A stretch of DNA of 42,269 bases, from assembly GCA_013388905.1 (NCBI GenBank), contig JACAEI010000043.1, forward strand, positions 1 through 42,269, read 5' to 3'. The first letter of the stretch is position 1; each line of letters starts with the position of its first letter. Shown here in pieces: positions 11,486 through 42,269 of this stretch. The notes below the pieces were generated by a model, which was not told the DNA's origin, ran no database searches, and was given only the letters and a program-made list of their open reading frames with translations. This stretch comes from Candidatus Bathyarchaeota archaeon (GTDB lineage Archaea > Thermoproteota > Bathyarchaeia > Bathyarchaeales > Bathycorpusculaceae). Position numbers and translations under genes: made by a program.

Positions 11486-12577
11486 CTAAAAATCCAATTC
11501 TTCCTTGATTATTCTTGTAATATTTTCAGCAGCATCTCCATCCCCGTAAGGAGATTTGCCTGACATTTTTTTAGGCTGTTTCAACGTTCTCTCTATCGCT
11601 TTCACTATCTTGTCCTTTTCTACTCCGACAACTTCAGCAAAACCGGCTTTGACTGCTTCCGGCCTCTCGGTTGAAAGACGTATAACTAAAACGGGTTTTC
11701 GAATGGGCGGCGCTGTTGCTTCTTCCTGTATCCCGCCAGAATCTGTGATTATCATTTCACATTTCTCCATTAGAACCAAGAAGTCCAGATAGCCAAGTGG
11801 TGACAAAATTTCCAGGTTTTTGATTTTTCTAACTTTTGCGTAGATTTTGTTTTGTCGCAGTCTCTTTTTTGTGCGTGGGTGCATGGGATAAACAACTGGT
11901 ATAGGGGCTTCTGCAAAGGCTTCTACGAAATTTTTTAGAACTGTAAGATCATCTACGTTTTCTGCTCTGTGAGCTGTTGCTAACGCGAATTTTTTAAAGT
12001 GAACGCTTTCCAATATTTTTGATTTCTTTTTCGCTATTGGCAAATGCTGGATTACAGCGTCTATAACCGTGTTTCCGGTAACGTATATCTTTCCCCACAC
12101 GTTCTCTTTCTCCAAGTTGTTTTTAGCCGTCTCTGTTGGTGCGAAAAGATAAGAAGAAATGTGGTCGGTTAGGCGTCTGTTGTGTTCTTCTGGCATGCGA
12201 AAGTCAAAGCTTCTCAATCCGGCTTCAACATGTCCAACGGATACTCCGAGCTTAACTGCTGCTAGGGCTGTAGCCAGGACACCGTTGGTGTCGCCTTCTA
12301 CCAGAACGAGCTTAGGCGTTGTCTTTTTCAGCAGTTTTTCCATATAAGTTATTATGCGAGCTGTTTGTATTCCTTGAGAATAAGCCCTAAGCTTGTAGCT
12401 AAAATCAGGTTTTGGTAGCTCAAGTTCCTCGATGAATTGCTGAGACATGTTATAATCATAATGTTGACCGCAATGGGTAAAAATCAGTGGAATCTTGTTT
12501 GCTTGTAAAGCCCTGATAAGCGGTGCCATCTTTATGATTTCGGGACGTGTACCTACAACAACCATTACTGTTTTCAT
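11486..12577 (-). CDS. wecB: UDP-N-acetylglucosamine 2-epimerase
   Basis: 363-aa non-hydrolysing epimerase converting UDP-GlcNAc to UDP-ManNAc. Motifs: VVVGTRPEIIKMAPLIRAL at the start, VEGDTNGVLA, GHVEAGLRSFDFRMPEEHNRRLTDHIS, ATAHRAENVD, YPMHPRTKKRL and TDSGGIQEEA with the catalytic acidic and histidine residues of the GT-B-like fold. Length is normal. It feeds surface or N-glycan synthesis. It stands alone here, ending 6 bases from the convergent PAC2 gene. The usual partner, a UDP-ManNAc dehydrogenase, is represented only by a degenerate homologue at 33773-35146. Confidence 0.93.
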   Translation of the reverse strand: MKTVMVVVGTRPEIIKMAPLIRALQANKIPLIFTHCGQHYDYNMSQQFIEELELPKPDFSYKLRAYSQGIQTARIITYMEKLLKKTTPKLVLVEGDTNGVLATALAAVKLGVSVGHVEAGLRSFDFRMPEEHNRRLTDHISSYLFAPTETAKNNLEKENVWGKIYVTGNTVIDAVIQHLPIAKKKSKILESVHFKKFALATAHRAENVDDLTVLKNFVEAFAEAPIPVVYPMHPRTKKRLRQNKIYAKVRKIKNLEILSPLGYLDFLVLMEKCEMIITDSGGIQEEATAPPIRKPVLVIRLSTERPEAVKAGFAEVVGVEKDKIVKAIERTLKQPKKMSGKSPYGDGDAAENITRIIKEELDF

Positions 12578-28840: not shown

Positions 28841-30934
28841 TTGAAAAGATCTATAGCAACTATTCTTGCGGTCATGTTGTTTATCGCTTCTGTTGTATTA
28901 ATATTTCTACCAAATGTAGAGGCTGTAGGCGTAGAAATTATCTCTATTACACCATCAAGTCGACGTGGAAAAGTTGGAGAGCCCGTTCATATTAGTGGAA
29001 CCATAAACATAACTAACGGTTTATATCAAATCTGGTTTAACCAAACCAAGGTCATAGAGGCAAATGCCACTGGAAACATTGTGAATGCCACGTTTCCAGT
29101 TCCAACGCTTCCACATGGGAATTATACTGTAACATTGCTTGATTATAGCCTAAACGCTAATGCTACAGACTGGTTTTACATAGACACAGCTTACTATGTT
29201 GAGGCTAAGACGCCTCCACCCCCAGAACAACTGCAAGAGGGGAGCATGATTGAAATTTGGGTAAATGTGACTGGCGGAAAGCCAAACACTATCTACCATG
29301 CCAACATTACAGTCAAATTTCCTGCACCCCGAAACGAAACCTATTGGACTCTTGTTACGCTGACAAATACTACAGATACAGGCAAAGGGTATAACATAAC
29401 AATCGTTTATCCGACCAGTTTTAGCGGAGCAATAAACGCAAATTACGTAGGCATATATAGTGTTACTTTTAACAAAACACTAGCTACAGACACTTTTTTT
29501 ATCGGACTGACAACGCACACAGAATATCATCGATATCAGCTTGTAGATATTAAAGCGACCGGGTACAAGCCAAGTGAAAACGTTACAACAAGAATAATCT
29601 TTGGAGGAAAAACAATCAATTCGACAAACATAACAGCTACACCAGGGGGCATAGTTGCAATGAACTGGAAGATCCCTCCGAATGCTTCTAGGGGTATATA
29701 CATTGTTAACATTACTTCTATATCGCCTGAACCTACGCTGAAGAACCCGCCGGATATCCAAACTTTCAACATTCCAGGCTTTGATGTTAGCATAACTACG
29801 AGGAATCTTGCAGGGGAAATTGTTGCTAATGTAGTTGTCCGAGTTTTCGAGAATGAAAAGTCAATTATTAATCTAACAAGCACTACAAATGGTTTAGCAC
29901 AGACAACGCTTGAAGTTGGAAACTACACTGGTAAAGCATTTTACAAGGGAGAAAATGTTGGCAATTTTCCGATAAATGTTACCAATGGGCCGGTATCTTT
30001 AGGTTTTAACTGTACTCTTACCAATCTCAAAATCTCTGTTTTCGCAAAGGTAGACAGCGCCGAGATTTCTATTCCTGAGGTTAAAATATTCTTAACTTCG
30101 GCGCCTGAAAACAGGACTTTGTTTACCAACATGACAGGAACGACTATTGCGACTTCTTTGCTGCCTAACCATACATACGTTTTAAATGTTTCGAGATACG
30201 GAGTATCATTCCCCAATGTAACAAGCATCCCAACATTGCTTGATAATGGAACTGCAGTTGCATGGTATAATGTAACGTTAATCAGCCCTACATTGACTTT
30301 GCGAGTCAATACAACTAAACCAAATAATGAGCCTATAGGTAATGTTAAAGTGAAAGTGCAAGAATTAATGGGCGGCTTACACTATGAAGATAACACCAAC
30401 GCGGAAGGAATAATTGTTTTTAACTGTGCCTTCGGCAAATACACTGTAGAAGTTTATGATGCAGATGGAATAAAACTAAATGAAACAACTGTGAATCTGT
30501 TCCAGAATCAAAATGTGTCTATAGTCTGCAAACTCTATGGTTTAACCGTTTCATTTAGAATTGTTGATTATCTTGGACAGCCAATTTCAAATGCAAATGT
30601 AACACTTTTACGCGGAAATGTTGTCTTGCGCTCAAACCACACACAAACTAACGGTATAGCTACATTTAACAACATTACTGGAGGTCTTCTTCAAGTAAGC
30701 ACCTATGTATTTAATCAAATACCAAATGTGGTCAAGGTTTTTTATGTTGATACTTCCTCGACAATTGAAATTAGATTGGAAGAATATGTTATATTAGCAG
30801 GTTTTCTTGTGAACACAGCCGTTTTCGCAATAACGTCAATAATTTTGATAGCTGTTCTCCTCGTTCTCTTAATAGAAGTTTATAGACGAAAGCGTTTCAA
30901 GCCACAAAAAATTTCCAAACAAGAGCCGGAATAA
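28841..30934 (+). CDS. Large secreted, membrane-anchored surface protein, heavily sequon-rich
   Basis: 697-aa exported protein. N-terminal signal peptide: positive MKRS then a hydrophobic stretch ending near LPNVEAVG (about residue 30). The body is beta-rich with repeated Ig-like or carboxypeptidase-regulatory-like units, e.g. DVSITTRNLAGEIVANVVVRVFENEK, LTLRVNTTKPNNEPIGNVKVKVQE and VSFRIVDYLGQPISNANVTLLRGN. About 30 N-x-S/T sequons are present. A single C-terminal helix (about residues 655-680) is followed by a basic RRKRFK and an 18-residue tail. TTG start with GGAGAG about 9 bases upstream. Probably an S-layer-associated or adhesive protein; the tail is longer than usual for archaeosortase substrates and lacks a clear PGF-like motif. 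Confidence 0.75.
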   Translation: MKRSIATILAVMLFIASVVLIFLPNVEAVGVEIISITPSSRRGKVGEPVHISGTINITNGLYQIWFNQTKVIEANATGNIVNATFPVPTLPHGNYTVTLLDYSLNANATDWFYIDTAYYVEAKTPPPPEQLQEGSMIEIWVNVTGGKPNTIYHANITVKFPAPRNETYWTLVTLTNTTDTGKGYNITIVYPTSFSGAINANYVGIYSVTFNKTLATDTFFIGLTTHTEYHRYQLVDIKATGYKPSENVTTRIIFGGKTINSTNITATPGGIVAMNWKIPPNASRGIYIVNITSISPEPTLKNPPDIQTFNIPGFDVSITTRNLAGEIVANVVVRVFENEKSIINLTSTTNGLAQTTLEVGNYTGKAFYKGENVGNFPINVTNGPVSLGFNCTLTNLKISVFAKVDSAEISIPEVKIFLTSAPENRTLFTNMTGTTIATSLLPNHTYVLNVSRYGVSFPNVTSIPTLLDNGTAVAWYNVTLISPTLTLRVNTTKPNNEPIGNVKVKVQELMGGLHYEDNTNAEGIIVFNCAFGKYTVEVYDADGIKLNETTVNLFQNQNVSIVCKLYGLTVSFRIVDYLGQPISNANVTLLRGNVVLRSNHTQTNGIATFNNITGGLLQVSTYVFNQIPNVVKVFYVDTSSTIEIRLEEYVILAGFLVNTAVFAITSIILIAVLLVLLIEVYRRKRFKPQKISKQEPE

Positions 30935-32828: not shown

Positions 32829-33776
32829 CTACGTGATTCTTATTACCTTTCCTGTTTCTGAAGATTTCAGAGCTGCTTCTGCTATCTGAAGCGTCTTCAA
32901 ACCGTCTATTCCGTTTATCAAGGGTTTTTCCTTTCTCAAAATGCAATTAGCAAAGTGTTGTAGCTCAAGTTTTAAGGGTTCCTGCCATGGATACCTCGGC
33001 TGCATAGTTTCTTTTGCGTCTTCGATTGTTAATTCCTGACTGATATAATCCAATTTCATTATCGCTTTGCTTCCTGTGATTATCAAAGTTCTCGTCTTAT
33101 AAGGTGTTAACCAATTAGATTCAATAAAGGCGCTTCTTCCACCATTAAAGGTTAACATTATTTGAGCGTAATCTTCAAATTTTTTGTATTTCATACTTCC
33201 AGTCTTCGCGTAAACCGCAATTGGTTCTTCATCAAAAAGATATCTAACGACATCTATGTCGTGGATTGCTGTATCCTTGACTACTCCGATATCCCCTATT
33301 CTTTCCGGCCATTCAGAAACTCGCTTTGCAGTTGCACACACAAGGTTGCCTATTATTCTGTTCTCAATAGCTTTTTTCATGTGCTGAATGCCAGGAATAA
33401 ATCGCATCAAAAAGCCCACTGTAAGATGCAATTTTTTTTGTTGGGCTGTTTCTACTAGTTTCCCTGCTTGTTTTACACTTACTGCCATAGGTTTTTCAAC
33501 GAGAACGTGTTTTCCAGTTTTCAAAGCTTTTAATGCTTCGTCAGCAAGTTTTAGAGACCATGTGCAAATGCTCACTGCATCAATATCTTTCCTCCTTAGC
33601 ATTTTTCCCGAGTTTGTATACGCCTTTACACCGAATTGTTTGGCAACATTTTGGGCTCTTTCAGCATTTATGTCACATACAGCCAAAAGCTCCGTTTCTT
33701 CCAATTCTTTAAAGACTCTCGCGTGGTTTCTTCCCCAAAAACCGATACCAATAACTGCTACGCGCAGTTTTTTCAT
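32829..33776 (-). CDS. Gfo/Idh/MocA family sugar oxidoreductase
   Basis: 315-aa NAD(P)-dependent oxidoreductase. The Rossmann motif GIGFWG (10-15), CDIN, then the family signature HVLVEKPMAVS (EKP 94-96), and a C-terminal beta-sheet domain with DTAIHDIDVVRYLF carrying the catalytic His/Asp. Close to UDP-N-acetyl-sugar 3-dehydrogenases in pattern (WlbA-like), but substrate is not fixed. Its ATG overlaps the stop of the upstream dehydrogenase-like gene by 4 bp, so it is the last gene of the nucleotide-sugar operon. Confidence 0.88.
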   Translation of the reverse strand: MKKLRVAVIGIGFWGRNHARVFKELEETELLAVCDINAERAQNVAKQFGVKAYTNSGKMLRRKDIDAVSICTWSLKLADEALKALKTGKHVLVEKPMAVSVKQAGKLVETAQQKKLHLTVGFLMRFIPGIQHMKKAIENRIIGNLVCATAKRVSEWPERIGDIGVVKDTAIHDIDVVRYLFDEEPIAVYAKTGSMKYKKFEDYAQIMLTFNGGRSAFIESNWLTPYKTRTLIITGSKAIMKLDYISQELTIEDAKETMQPRYPWQEPLKLELQHFANCILRKEKPLINGIDGLKTLQIAEAALKSSETGKVIRIT

Positions 33777-35146
33777 TTAGCCCAAACTCCTCTTCCTAAA
33801 CCTCGAAATATGAAACCTTCTTCCTCAACCTTACCACATTCAACAATTCCTGCAAAATCCACTACAGCTGCGGGCATTCGCATAACAACTTTCAACTTTT
33901 TAAGGTTTAATCGTTTAAACTGTTCATGTCCCGTCAGTATTAATAAACAGTCTGCGCCCTCCAAAGCATGTATCATACTTTTCTTGAAACGATTTTGCAT
34001 TTCGACCAATGCCTCGCTTGTAAGATGCGGATCGTAAAGACTGACTTTGGCCCCTTTAGCTTCTAACATTTTAATCAGTTCTTCTACCGTTTTCTTTGGA
34101 GAACTTTGCATATTTGGCATCTGTGAGATTCCAAGTAAGGTAATTCTCGCTCTTCTTAATGGTTTACCACAGTTTTTCAATGCATCCTTAATTAGATTAA
34201 TCGCATGTTTAGCTGTTTCTTCGTTTATTTCTCTTGCAATCGTAGGAATTCGAAATTTTAAGTTCAGATTTTCAGCGTCTTCCAACAAAAGATACGTTTC
34301 TTTGTATATGCTATCGCTAAAAGGTGAAGATAAGGTTGTGAAATTCGTATCGTTTTTTACAAGTTTCTTGACTTCGATATAATCCATGTTTGCTTTTTCA
34401 CAGAAAAGAGCAAGTTCTTTAGCGAGGGCAGTGTTAACATCCTGTCGTACCGCCTGAAAAAGTGTGACTGCTTCTGCGGCTCTTATGTTATGCGTTTTTT
34501 TAATGTTTTTTGCGATTGTTCCTAAAAAAATTGAGGCAGTATCCAAACTTTTTTGGTCAGCTGCAGCTACTAAACGCTCTTGGTTGTAAATGATTTCAGG
34601 CGTTTGGTCGTCTATAAATTGGGTTGGGCAATACGCTAAGCCGAAATCAACTCCCACTTTGAATCCTGATGTGTTTTCCAATGTTTCTTTAACCATGCCT
34701 TGTGTAACTCCAACTCCTACCGAGTCTGCGATAATAATTAGAGTGCCACAGCGAAGGTTCGCGCCTGCCAGCTTGCATGCAGTTTCCAAATTTGAGTAAT
34801 TGACTTTTTTCTTTTCGTCCATTTTAACCGGAATTGCAATGACGATGATATCGCTTTGGGAAACAGCCGCCTTAACGTCAGTTGTTGCATTTAAAACTCC
34901 TGTTTTCACATAATTCTTCATTTTTTGTTCAATTTCACGGGGCAAAAGTAACATCTTCCCTCGCGCAATATTGTTCACTACAGTCTGGTTCGCATCTGCA
35001 TATTTGACTCTGAACCCAACGTCTGCAAACAAATAAGCGTGAAAAACGCCAATTTGCCCACAGCCTATTATGCAAACCGTGCATTTTCTACGTTTTTCCA
35101 CAGTGTCGATGTCTTCTGGTTTTATGTTTAGTATTGGCGAGGACAT
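33773..35146 (-). CDS. UDP-sugar dehydrogenase family protein with expected catalytic residues replaced
   Basis: 457-aa member of the UDP-glucose/GDP-mannose dehydrogenase family with all three domains: Rossmann GCGQIG (28-33), a central helix AEAVTLFQAVRQDVNTALAKELALF, and C-terminal ITLLGISQMPNMQSSP-KKTVEELIKMLEAKGAKVSLYDPHL. In active WecC/UGDH the central motif is AE-x2-K-x3-N; here the Lys is Thr228 and the Asn is Ala232. The nucleophile motif GGxC(F/L)P is replaced by FSDSIYKE (Ile280 at the Cys position), and no Cys occurs at residues 253-312. So normal oxidation to a uronate seems impossible. The frame is intact, so it has probably acquired another role. Not annotated as wecC for this reason. 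Confidence 0.83.
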   Translation of the reverse strand: MSSPILNIKPEDIDTVEKRRKCTVCIIGCGQIGVFHAYLFADVGFRVKYADANQTVVNNIARGKMLLLPREIEQKMKNYVKTGVLNATTDVKAAVSQSDIIVIAIPVKMDEKKKVNYSNLETACKLAGANLRCGTLIIIADSVGVGVTQGMVKETLENTSGFKVGVDFGLAYCPTQFIDDQTPEIIYNQERLVAAADQKSLDTASIFLGTIAKNIKKTHNIRAAEAVTLFQAVRQDVNTALAKELALFCEKANMDYIEVKKLVKNDTNFTTLSSPFSDSIYKETYLLLEDAENLNLKFRIPTIAREINEETAKHAINLIKDALKNCGKPLRRARITLLGISQMPNMQSSPKKTVEELIKMLEAKGAKVSLYDPHLTSEALVEMQNRFKKSMIHALEGADCLLILTGHEQFKRLNLKKLKVVMRMPAAVVDFAGIVECGKVEEEGFIFRGLGRGVWAK

Positions 35147-35181: not shown

Positions 35182-36558
35182 TTAATCTTTTAAACTAGCA
35201 ATTAACCTTCTGAGTTTTAAACAATATTCGTTAACAAGCTGCTTAGCCTTTTGTTCGTTTTTCGCTTCTGCGTATAGTCGGTAAATGGGTTCTGTTCCGC
35301 TTGGTCGTATCAAGATAGCGCTTTTATCTTTGAACCAAACTTTAACTCCGTCAATAGTGCTTATATTAAGCCCTTTCATTTGTTTAATTAAGTTCTCTAA
35401 AGTTTTTTCTTTGAGGTTTTCTGGGCATTCCACTTTTCCTTTTTCAATGAAATATTTTGGCAGTTCTCCTATTAGCTTCGAGAGTTTTTTGCGAGTTTTC
35501 GCCATGATGTCTAAAATTAGGGCTGTAGCCATTGCTCCGTCTCTAACAGATTGGTGGGGACCATAAAAGATTCCTCCGTTTTCTTCTCCACCAAGTTTTG
35601 CCTTTATCTTTTTCATGGTCTGTGAAACAGTTACACTGCCTACTTTTGTCCAAACGAGTTTCCCCTTGTATGTGTCAGCTATGTCTTTAATCAGTGTTGA
35701 GGAGCTTATTGGTGTAACGATTTTTTCATTTGGATTATCTTTTAAAAAGTATTTTCCAATTAGGGCGAAGGTTTTGTCTCCCCAGCAGATTTCTCCATTC
35801 TCATCGACAAAAACGGAACGGTCGGCGTCTCCGTCATATGCTACACCTAAGTCTGCCCCTACAGCCTTAACTGTTGATGCCAATTCTGTCAAATTTTCTA
35901 CTCTAGGCTCAGGCAATCTTCCGGGAAATGTTCCATCAATGTTTCCATTTATAGTCATTACTTTGCATCCCAAATCTCTAAATAAATATGGGGCGGCTAA
36001 ATTGCCTACACTATTTGCGGCATCTATCACGATACGATAGTGTTTCTTGGCTATCATTTCAGTGTTTACATGCTTTTTTATTGCTTCTGTATAATCCTCT
36101 ATTACTCCGGGTAAGTCTCGTGTGGTTCCTATGTTATCCCATTCTGCATATCGCATTTTCCCGTCAAAAAATATGTTTTCAACTGCAATTTCTTGTTCTC
36201 GAGAAAGCTCTATTCCATCATTCCATATGACTTTTATTCCGTTGTATTCTGGCGGGTTATGGGACGCTGTTATTATCACTGCCCCATCTGGCTTGTGATT
36301 TTTTACCGCATATTGCAATGCTGGTGTAGGCGACATTCCAACGAAAAGCACGTCGCATCCTGTTGCATTTAAGCCTGCAATAACAGCCTTTGCGAGCATT
36401 GGACTGCTTGTTCTGGCATCATGTCCAACTATTAGGGTTCCATTTTTAAAGAAAGTCCCTACCGCACTTCCAATTGTGATTGCCATTTCAGAAGTTAATT
36501 CCTTATTAGCAACTCCACGGATTCCATTGGTTCCAAATAAACGCCTTGGACTTAACAT
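35182..36558 (-). CDS. glmM: Phosphoglucosamine mutase-type phosphohexomutase
   Basis: 458-aa alpha-D-phosphohexomutase. FGTNGIRGVAN at the start, phosphoserine loop ITASHNPPEYNGIKV (Ser99), Mg-binding YDGDADRS, sugar loop GGEENGGIF, phosphate-binding RPSGTEPIYRLY at the end. Most likely interconverts GlcN-6-P and GlcN-1-P for UDP-GlcNAc, or Man/Glc phosphates; archaeal members can be bifunctional. Third to second in the operon: nucleotidyltransferase, 15-base gap, glmM, 35-base gap, dehydrogenase-like gene. Confidence 0.9.
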   Translation of the reverse strand: MLSPRRLFGTNGIRGVANKELTSEMAITIGSAVGTFFKNGTLIVGHDARTSSPMLAKAVIAGLNATGCDVLFVGMSPTPALQYAVKNHKPDGAVIITASHNPPEYNGIKVIWNDGIELSREQEIAVENIFFDGKMRYAEWDNIGTTRDLPGVIEDYTEAIKKHVNTEMIAKKHYRIVIDAANSVGNLAAPYLFRDLGCKVMTINGNIDGTFPGRLPEPRVENLTELASTVKAVGADLGVAYDGDADRSVFVDENGEICWGDKTFALIGKYFLKDNPNEKIVTPISSSTLIKDIADTYKGKLVWTKVGSVTVSQTMKKIKAKLGGEENGGIFYGPHQSVRDGAMATALILDIMAKTRKKLSKLIGELPKYFIEKGKVECPENLKEKTLENLIKQMKGLNISTIDGVKVWFKDKSAILIRPSGTEPIYRLYAEAKNEQKAKQLVNEYCLKLRRLIASLKD

Positions 36559-36573
36559 ATTATATCTCCCTTT

Positions 36574-37662
36574 CTAAATTACGCATTTAGGTTTTAACAC
36601 ACTTTCCGAAACCTCTTTTGCTGGACAAATCGAAACTCTGTTGGCGAGTGTTACGTTATCTTCTATTTTCACATTATCGCCCAGTATGCATCCTCTATTA
36701 ATTTTCACTTTCTTCCCAATTACTACGTTTTCCCCAATTATTGCTCCATTTACAATGGAAAAATCAGATATCACAGCATTAGGAAAAACCACGGAATCTT
36801 TTATGTAGACATTGTTTCCAATAGTAACATTTCGCCCCAAAACTGCATATGGACCTACAACAGACTCTTCTCCTATCAAAACATTTTTGTCGAATGCTAC
36901 GGGTTCTTCAATTTTTCCTCTCGTTCTCATTTTATGTTTCTGCAAAAGGGCAGTTGAATTGAGAAGAGTTCTGTTTATTTCCAAAAATTCCTCTGGTTCA
37001 CCTATGTCTATCCATAAATCATCAAAAATATGCCCATAAAGTCTGCCCTCTTCTGCCAATTTAGGAAAAACTTCACGTTCAATAGACACTTTACGACCTT
37101 GTGGGATGTATTCGAAAATTTTTGGGCTGAGAATGTAAACTCCAGCGTTTATTAGATTCGTCGGAGCAAGTTTGCGAGGCGGCTTCTCAACAAATGTTTT
37201 TATACGATTTTCTTTTGTCAGTTCTGCTACGCCATATCTACTTGGATCTTTCACGTTGTGAAGAGCTATTGTCGCTAATGCTTTCTTTTTTTCATGGGTC
37301 TTCAAAATTTCTTTGTAGTCTATGTCGGCAAATATGTCACCGTTTAAAACTAAAAAAGGAGAGTCGCGTCCAACGAGTTTTTCAGCTTTTTTTATTGGAC
37401 CACCTGTTCCTAGAGGTTTTTTAAATAGGTCTCGCGAATAGGTGATTTTAAGCCCGTTTTTTGGGATTTTTTGTTGTTTTATGAGGATTTCAGCTTGGTG
37501 GCTGACTGCAAGTATCACTTCTCTTATACCGTTTTTGACGAGTCTCTCAAAAGTCCACTGTAATAAGGGTTTGTTAAGTATTGGGAAGAGAGCCTTAGGT
37601 CGCGTGCAACTTAGGGGTCTTAATCTTGTGCCGAAGCCACCTACGAGAATCAAAGCTTTCAA
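36574..37662 (-). CDS. Sugar-phosphate nucleotidyltransferase with left-handed beta-helix domain
   Basis: 362-aa two-domain enzyme. N-terminal nucleotidyltransferase: KALILVGGFGTRLRPLSCTRPKALFPILNKPLLQ, VLNGDIFADIDY, FVEKPPRKLAPTNLINAGVY. C-terminal hexapeptide repeats from about residue 250 (VLIGEESVVGPYAVLGRNVTIGNNVYI..., VVIGKKVKINRGCILGDNVKIEDNV). Candidate for a GlmU-like or mannose-1-phosphate guanylyltransferase reaction; adjacency to glmM favours UDP-GlcNAc. The frame runs to 37743, but that would overlap the divergent gene's ATG; TTG 37662 gives the canonical start and has GGTGA 7 bases upstream. First gene of the operon. Confidence 0.87.
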   Translation of the reverse strand: MKALILVGGFGTRLRPLSCTRPKALFPILNKPLLQWTFERLVKNGIREVILAVSHQAEILIKQQKIPKNGLKITYSRDLFKKPLGTGGPIKKAEKLVGRDSPFLVLNGDIFADIDYKEILKTHEKKKALATIALHNVKDPSRYGVAELTKENRIKTFVEKPPRKLAPTNLINAGVYILSPKIFEYIPQGRKVSIEREVFPKLAEEGRLYGHIFDDLWIDIGEPEEFLEINRTLLNSTALLQKHKMRTRGKIEEPVAFDKNVLIGEESVVGPYAVLGRNVTIGNNVYIKDSVVFPNAVISDFSIVNGAIIGENVVIGKKVKINRGCILGDNVKIEDNVTLANRVSICPAKEVSESVLKPKCVI

Positions 37663-37741
37663 AGAGGTTTCACCGTTCTTAACTTGCAAGTTTATATTCA
37701 TTGTCTTGTAATAAAACGATTTCGTGGAAAGGTGAAAGACC

Positions 37742-38500
37742 ATGAAAGTTTTGCTTTATGAAATGAGTTGGGCTGAAGCTAAAGAATATTTCACAAAGAA
37801 CGATATTGCTATTCTTCCTATTGGTGCAAATGAGCAACACGGGCTACAGAATCCGTTGGGAACAGATCATTTAATAGCTAAAGCATTAGCCGAAGAAACA
37901 GCTAAACGAACAGGGGTTCTTTGTCTTCAAATGATTCCCTATGGCATAAGTTCTCATCATAAACAGTTCTGGGGAACCATTAGCATTTCACCTGAAACGT
38001 TCAAGAAATACGTAAATGAGGTGTGCTTATCACTTAACTATTACGGCATCACGAAAATTGTAATAATTAACGCCCATGGAGGAAACTTAAACACTTTGGC
38101 AGAGTTGGCTAGACAGCTTAGAGAAAAGGGATTTTTCACCTCTATATTTCAATGGTGGCCAGCAGCAAACAAGCTTCTACCAGATTTATTTAAACCAGAA
38201 GAAAGACGCCATGCATGTGCAGAAGAAACTTCCGTAAACTTGGCTTTACATCCAGAAATTGTAAACATGGATGCGGCTGTGGATGAAACAGTTCATGAGA
38301 ACATTTTACAATTAGAGGGCATAACGCTTCCATTGGATACTGCAGATTATACAGATGCAGGGGTTTTCGGCAAATCTTCAACAGCTTCTGCAGAAAAGGG
38401 CAAAACAGTATTGGAAGCAGTCATAAATGAGCTTGTAAAACATGAAAACTTGCTCAAAAAGGAAAAGATTGAAAATTTAATGCAGAAACCCAAAGCTTAA
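37742..38500 (+). CDS. Creatininase family amidohydrolase (ArfB candidate)
   Basis: 252-aa metal-dependent hydrolase of the creatininase superfamily: LPIGANEQHGLQNPLGTDHLIA (E31, H33, D42), YGISSHHKQFWGTIS, INAHGGNLNTL (H112) and ACAEETSVNLALHPE with the late glutamate. Archaeal members include ArfB (FAPy deformylase in flavin/F420 precursor synthesis) and other amidases; no arf partner is adjacent, so the reaction is open. Good GGTGA 6 bases before ATG. It faces the nucleotidyltransferase operon across a short divergent region and converges on guaA. Confidence 0.8.
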   Translation: MKVLLYEMSWAEAKEYFTKNDIAILPIGANEQHGLQNPLGTDHLIAKALAEETAKRTGVLCLQMIPYGISSHHKQFWGTISISPETFKKYVNEVCLSLNYYGITKIVIINAHGGNLNTLAELARQLREKGFFTSIFQWWPAANKLLPDLFKPEERRHACAEETSVNLALHPEIVNMDAAVDETVHENILQLEGITLPLDTADYTDAGVFGKSSTASAEKGKTVLEAVINELVKHENLLKKEKIENLMQKPKA

Positions 38501-42181: not shown

Positions 42182-42269
42182 GCGGGGGTTGCCAAGCATG
42201 GCCAAAGGCGTAGGCCTGAGGCGCCTATCCCATAGGGGTTCGTGGGTTCAAATCCCACCCCCCGCACCA
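42182..42269 (+). tRNA. tRNA-Leu (GAG anticodon), 3' CCA encoded
   Basis: Class II tRNA. Acceptor GCGGGGG (42182-42188) pairs with CCCCCGC (42259-42265), discriminator A, then encoded CCA (42267-42269), the last bases of the window. D arm with GCC/GGC stem, anticodon stem TAGGC/GCCTA around loop CTGAGGC giving anticodon GAG (Leu CUU/CUC), long variable arm TCCCATAGGGGTTC with a CCC/GGG stem, T arm GTGGG-TTCAAAT-CCCAC. No intron. The 95 bases before it are A/T-rich and hold no gene. Confidence 0.96.

Follow-up and report, generated by a model that had tools for sequence, protein, structure and literature searches.

In human UGDH, residues 265–280 wrap UDP-glucose and hold Cys276 and Asp280, Lys220 provides charge stabilisation, and without Cys276 the reaction from UDP-glucose cannot be completed (PMC3184952). 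Pseudoenzymes are already known as a kind, and a search of the open-access literature, with subscription papers outside its scope, returned no description of one in this dehydrogenase family, be it an inactive UGDH-like protein or a bathyarchaeal counterpart. The window (the whole 42,269-nucleotide stretch analysed here, which makes up contig C9 in the 1.5-Mb draft genome of a bathyarchaeon) encodes a homologue of 457 aa on the minus strand at 33773–35146, in which the catalytic Glu, Lys, Asn, Cys, Asp and Thr positions are all replaced or deleted. We refer to this pseudo-UDP-sugar dehydrogenase as PDH.

The PDH gene and its active site

The reading frame of PDH is intact, and the NAD-binding, central and UDP-binding domains (PF03721, PF00984 and PF03720) follow one another in order, all above the Pfam cut-offs; an unbroken frame and preserved Rossmann and C-terminal domains had been claimed by a sequence-only reading of this DNA. 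PDH belongs to the nucleotide-sugar dehydrogenase family TIGR03026 (224.1 bits, cut-off 189.8), yet misses every equivalog cut-off of the NCBIfam profiles by far, scoring 179.5 bits against NF040825 (UDP-ManNAc dehydrogenase), where the cut-off is 750. The gene is small and its product soluble-looking, as are those of its operon neighbours. A simple search for poly-T across the window returned nothing informative. The AlphaFold2 model of PDH, based on the family alignment, has a pLDDT of 88.3, and its best PDB matches are CalS8 and the UDP-ManNAc dehydrogenase of P. horikoshii (4r16), the latter at 2.1 Å and a TM score of 0.92 by target.

PDH was aligned with 4r16, other solved enzymes and 16 canonical homologues. 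Within the AE-x2-K-x3-N site (codons 224–235, AEAVTLFQAVRQ; 34441–34476, minus strand), Thr228 aligns with the catalytic Lys204 of 4r16 (Lys220 in human UGDH) and Ala232 with Asn208 (human Asn224), exactly as the sequence-only reading had placed them. That reading had also assigned Ile280 to the position of the catalytic Cys. Here the loss of the Cys is borne out but the exact replacement is not, since Ile280 adjoins the Cys position and the column of Cys258 itself is a gap in the multiple alignment, both in the window's PDH and in 71/71 tabulated order-level members; in a pairwise alignment, Ser279 stands at this position. The Cys loop is at least three residues shorter in all of these proteins, with part of the UDP-sugar loop deleted, and the loop of PDH that matches residues 265–280 of human UGDH is shortened and scrambled. 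The remnant of the Cys-bearing loop spans codons 262–285 (LSSPFSDSIYKETY; 34290–34363, minus strand) and is shortened and unconstrained. This loop is poorly predicted in the PDH model; however, a Cys-bearing deep relative has equally low pLDDT there, so the value is uninformative and was dropped as a sign of a collapsed pocket.

Several further losses had been overlooked. The hydrolysis residues Glu151 and Asp262 of 4r16 (Glu161 and Asp280 in human UGDH) correspond to Thr175 and Glu283 in PDH, Thr119 (human Thr131) corresponds to Ser142, the GG of the Cys-loop motif GGxC(L/F/I) is gone, and Met stands where the canonical AYKGG motif has its UDP-contact Lys. The substituted catalytic sites are near-invariant across 17 canonical references, and the losses in PDH exceed chance. 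A relocated catalytic set was sought in the PDH pocket and none was found. Judged by its residues, PDH very probably lacks UDP-sugar 6-dehydrogenase activity towards UDP-ManNAc or UDP-Glc, and the earlier view that UDP-ManNAc dehydrogenation is unlikely gains support from the missing Cys, Lys, Asn, Glu and Asp. A catalytic role with residues contributed by a partner may be conceivable on the same evidence.

Graded loss and selection across Bathyarchaeia

The homologue set draws on 61 relatives plus 163 genomes of the class, and a few of the matches carry an internal stop. In a tree of 131 proteins, the PDH family forms one clade (87 rows, some 85 relatives; SH-aLRT 99) apart from the canonical enzymes. 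The window genome itself has two intact canonical paralogues elsewhere, which fall outside this clade. Within the window's order, the search table counts 109 PDH-bearing genomes out of 116 searched at E <= 1e-100.

Glu is lost in every tabulated member of the clade. In the deep class members it is replaced by Ile and Asp is mostly lost (to Tyr or Asn), with Thr retained and both Cys and Lys kept in 15/15 tabulated proteins; a further deep member, L197, is without Cys too. At the order level, Glu is gone and Cys deleted in 24/24, with Lys kept in 20 of them. The sister family f7 has Asn in place of Lys in 7/8 members and Glu in place of the first NAD glycine in 8/8. In the window's group, Cys and Lys are absent from all 39 members, Asn is also lost, and the first or second NAD glycine has been lost in 14. 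The order of loss is thus Glu first, then Cys, then Lys and Asn together with the UDP-sugar loop, and then the NAD glycines. The exact Thr/Ala/Ile pattern, whose conservation among homologues had been proposed as a check, is not what is retained: the Lys column of the window's group holds Val (11), Ala (9), Thr (8), Leu (3) and others with no conserved substitute, and it is the loss itself that is conserved. Canonical residues are kept only in other subfamilies and not throughout the PDH clade, which speaks against a sequencing or strain oddity.

Three variants were observed alongside this series. Deep members L185–L195, L200 and L201 keep Cys and Lys but have Glu and Asp replaced, and, to judge from these residues, their reaction may end short of thioester hydrolysis or involve a different acceptor. 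L202 (G159, contig 13), a minus-strand ORF of 660 aa, carries an in-frame insertion of intein-like look directly before the catalytic Cys (GGH/CLPGDEYIF...LIVHN/CIPQNP). Another non-canonical subfamily (L167 from Sulfolobales, L204 and the second copy at L052) keeps Glu, Lys and Cys, with Asn replaced by Gly and Asp by Tyr.

Throughout the window's group the frames are open. Whole-gene dN/dS of PDH is 0.185 (window versus G001), 0.092 and 0.156 in the usable within-genus pairs, where Gfo/Idh, the downstream gene, gives 0.074, 0.093 and 0.053. PDH is thus an enzyme homologue under purifying selection with a conserved loss of catalytic residues, one of two hallmarks of a pseudoenzyme; the other, a non-catalytic function such as the binding or regulation of a partner, is hinted at by gene order and a weak covariation of rates. 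A decaying pseudogene, or an error of sequencing or assembly, might be suspected from the fast divergence of PDH relative to its neighbours (tree length 10.4 versus 3.7–5.0 for Gfo/Idh and GlmM), but is hardly credible and is refuted as a general account by the dozens of independent genomes whose frames are open, by dN/dS of 0.09–0.19 and by the same gene order, with the gene found in 109/116 genomes of the order.

Selection is unevenly distributed along the protein. For residues 254–285, dN/dS rises from 0.018 in deep members (one genome pair) through 0.116 at the order level to 0.457 in the window's family, where the remaining regions lie at 0.115–0.141; for residues 396–457 it falls from 0.265 (deep, one pair) through 0.131 to 0.115, some of these regional comparisons consisting of few pairs and the f7 pair being too close to inform. 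Column conservation follows the same course, the mean top-residue fraction decreasing from 0.79 to 0.41 for residues 254–285 and increasing from about 0.55–0.61 to 0.73–0.74 for residues 396–457. The latter residues form the end of the UDP-binding domain (codons 396–457, DCLLILTGHEQFKRLN...GFIFRGLGRGVWAK; 33776–33961, minus strand), where conservation rose. Together, dN/dS and column conservation indicate that constraint shifted from the active site to the C-terminal domain.

These patterns bear on whether newly acquired residues now let the old pocket run another reaction (a two-electron oxidation, epimerisation or transfer), with Gfo/Idh as partner enzyme. Such neofunctionalisation would suit the intact Rossmann and UDP domains, the protein's own GCGQIG motif and the pocket-near Tyr172, which exceeds 90% in the window's family. 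Altered chemistry is credible in the deep relatives, since a residue set that keeps Cys, Lys and Thr but has lost Glu and mostly Asp could halt the reaction, or send it another way, ahead of thioester hydrolysis. In the window's family, however, the lost catalytic columns show no newly conserved polar set, constraint on the loop wrapping the UDP-sugar has been lifted and 14/39 members have eroded NAD glycines, and we consider this explanation distinctly unlikely. The new oxidation or epimerisation suggested by the sequence-only reading therefore finds no backing, as the lost columns hold no conserved substitute and the active-site loop evolves at a dN/dS of 0.46. Its suggestion of NAD binding fares better for the window's own protein, which has GCGQIG and, after strand 2, the acidic Asp51, but not for the about one third of the window's family, and all of f7, in which the glycines are eroded.

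Operon context and candidate partners

The operon of the window runs nucleotidyltransferase – GlmM – PDH – Gfo/Idh, all on the minus strand. A sugar-1-phosphate nucleotidyltransferase with a left-handed beta-helix domain (GlmU/GMPP-like; 36574–37743) has intact catalytic motifs and is followed by an archaeal phosphoglucosamine mutase GlmM (35182–36558; TIGR03990, 557 bits, above cut-off). Downstream of PDH, a Gfo/Idh/MocA oxidoreductase resembling UDP-GlcNAc 3-dehydrogenase (32829–33776), also with intact catalytic motifs, begins within the end of PDH, confirming the 4-bp overlap described earlier. Across the operons, the catalytic motifs of Gfo/Idh are about 100% conserved and those of the nucleotidyltransferase mostly 90–100%, with a few variable positions; the decay is therefore specific to PDH. 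Beside the operon, a creatininase-family amidohydrolase (PF02633; 37742–38500, plus strand) is kept in place in many relatives. Also on the plus strand are a large surface protein of Ig/macroglobulin-like type that has a membrane helix at its C terminus (28841–30934) and is syntenic in the window's family, and a tRNA-Leu (gag) at the extreme end of the window (42182–42269).

The canonical UDP-ManNAcA route is covered elsewhere in the genome by a UDP-GlcNAc 2-epimerase (window 11486–12577) and an intact dehydrogenase on contig 24. The canonical cluster on that contig (G000, L062) comprises UDP-ManNAc-type and UDP-Glc-type dehydrogenases, an aminotransferase, a hexapeptide acetyltransferase and a second Gfo/Idh, and is likely an acetamido-sugar pathway.

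In the window's group, Gfo/Idh lies directly downstream of PDH at 39/39 loci, an arrangement that the sequence-only reading had put forward for checking, and the gene ends mostly overlap (19 at -4, 15 at -13). Among the 38 loci with room, GlmM is found within 4.5 kb upstream at 37 and the nucleotidyltransferase at 33. Direct adjacency of Gfo/Idh extends to 8/9 loci in f7, compared with 10/25 at the order level and 4/14 among deep members, groups that mostly keep Lys; the two Lys-less groups are related and not phylogenetically independent, and we attach no p-value to this association of catalytic loss with adjacency. Beside some PDH relatives, Gfo/Idh is replaced by a PF00953 GlcNAc-1-P transferase-like gene or a DUF354 gene, and several deep genomes have the order nucleotidyltransferase – GlmM – PF00953 – DUF354 (opposite strand) – PDH – Gfo/Idh. 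The common theme of these neighbourhoods is UDP-HexNAc supply and first use.

One explanation of this arrangement is an ancestral pair of 6- and 3-dehydrogenases (WbpA–WbpB-type), of which the dead 6-dehydrogenase would have been kept as an obligate, non-catalytic binder of Gfo/Idh. Its adjacency in the two Lys-less groups, with mostly overlapping stop and start codons, argues for such a pair; against it, the PDH and Gfo/Idh rates do not covary strongly (partial r 0.07; 0.29) and PDH occurs in genomes without a close Gfo/Idh gene. We regard it as rather doubtful. Because of these genomes, the family as a whole has no obligate partner in Gfo/Idh, and obligate pairing as a family-wide rule is ruled out by them and by the varied neighbours. 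The adjacency to Gfo/Idh on which the sequence-only reading drew thus holds throughout the window's group but is not universal among relatives.

Alternatively, PDH could belong to the nucleotidyltransferase as a subunit for feedback or assembly. GMPPB, a sugar nucleotidyltransferase, is regulated by its dead, non-catalytic paralogue GMPPA (PMC11228364), which offers a precedent, and PDH would act in an analogous mode with an unrelated fold. Branch-rate covariation between PDH and the nucleotidyltransferase in the window's family is the highest among PDH pairs (partial r 0.59, p 1e-5; 0.49, p 1e-4, on a tree made without either protein; 0.41–0.55 on leaving one out), but it is a hint only, because the unrelated control pair GlmM–TRM5 also covaries at a nominally significant 0.42. 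In operons that lack GlmM and Gfo, L048, L057 and L218 among them, the nucleotidyltransferase is immediately upstream of PDH. The UDP-contact residues, however, are gone in the window's family, and as a specific account we find this one, too, somewhat unlikely.

Proposed role and comparison with known systems

With its active site dismantled and the rest of the protein under selection, a helper job for PDH beside co-encoded working sugar enzymes is probable. We favour, with some reserve, the reading that PDH is a pseudoenzyme that lost its catalytic site stepwise and now fills a non-catalytic role among the enzymes of a UDP-N-acetylhexosamine operon. With its nucleotide-sugar 6-dehydrogenase fold, PDH would still form the usual family dimer, and the conserved face at its C terminus would let it join one of the neighbouring enzymes as a subunit, structural or regulatory in function. 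The likeliest such enzymes are the nucleotidyltransferase and Gfo/Idh, at roughly even odds. Deep relatives, which keep most substrate-binding positions, may sense an NDP-sugar or NAD, a capacity probably weakened or gone in the window's family. More tentatively, a dehydrogenase fold might have turned, across the class, into a dedicated subunit that regulates UDP-HexNAc synthesis or helps to assemble its enzymes, serving the nucleotidyltransferase or Gfo/Idh, with intermediates of the loss still extant.

Automated annotation will label PDH a UDP-sugar dehydrogenase in well over 100 bathyarchaeal genomes, and would so predict uronic-acid sugars that PDH probably cannot make. The family also provides an unusually complete natural series from enzyme to pseudoenzyme, along which release of the active-site loop and new C-terminal constraint are measurable in dN/dS, and a pseudo-dehydrogenase kept across a whole class of uncultured archaea, the Bathyarchaeia.

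Among described systems, GMPPA/GMPPB possibly resembles PDH in mode only, in that an inactive sugar-nucleotide protein modulates a nucleotidyltransferase (PMC11228364), and is unrelated in fold. The best NCBIfam match of the neighbouring Gfo/Idh is the archaeal UDP-GlcNAc 3-dehydrogenase (NF040723, 319 bits), with the EKP and HD motifs intact; since this score falls below the 450-bit equivalog cut-off, we assign no exact reaction. PDH has the fold and domain order of human UGDH and its relatives but no retained equivalents of Cys276, Lys220, Asn224, Asp280, Thr131 and the 265–280 loop. Likewise, Glu151, Lys204, Asn208, Cys258, Asp262, Thr119 and most of the Cys loop of P. horikoshii 4r16 are replaced or missing, whereas the whole three-domain fold (26% identity), the C-terminal GxGRG end and the equivalents of R281 and N284 are common to both proteins.
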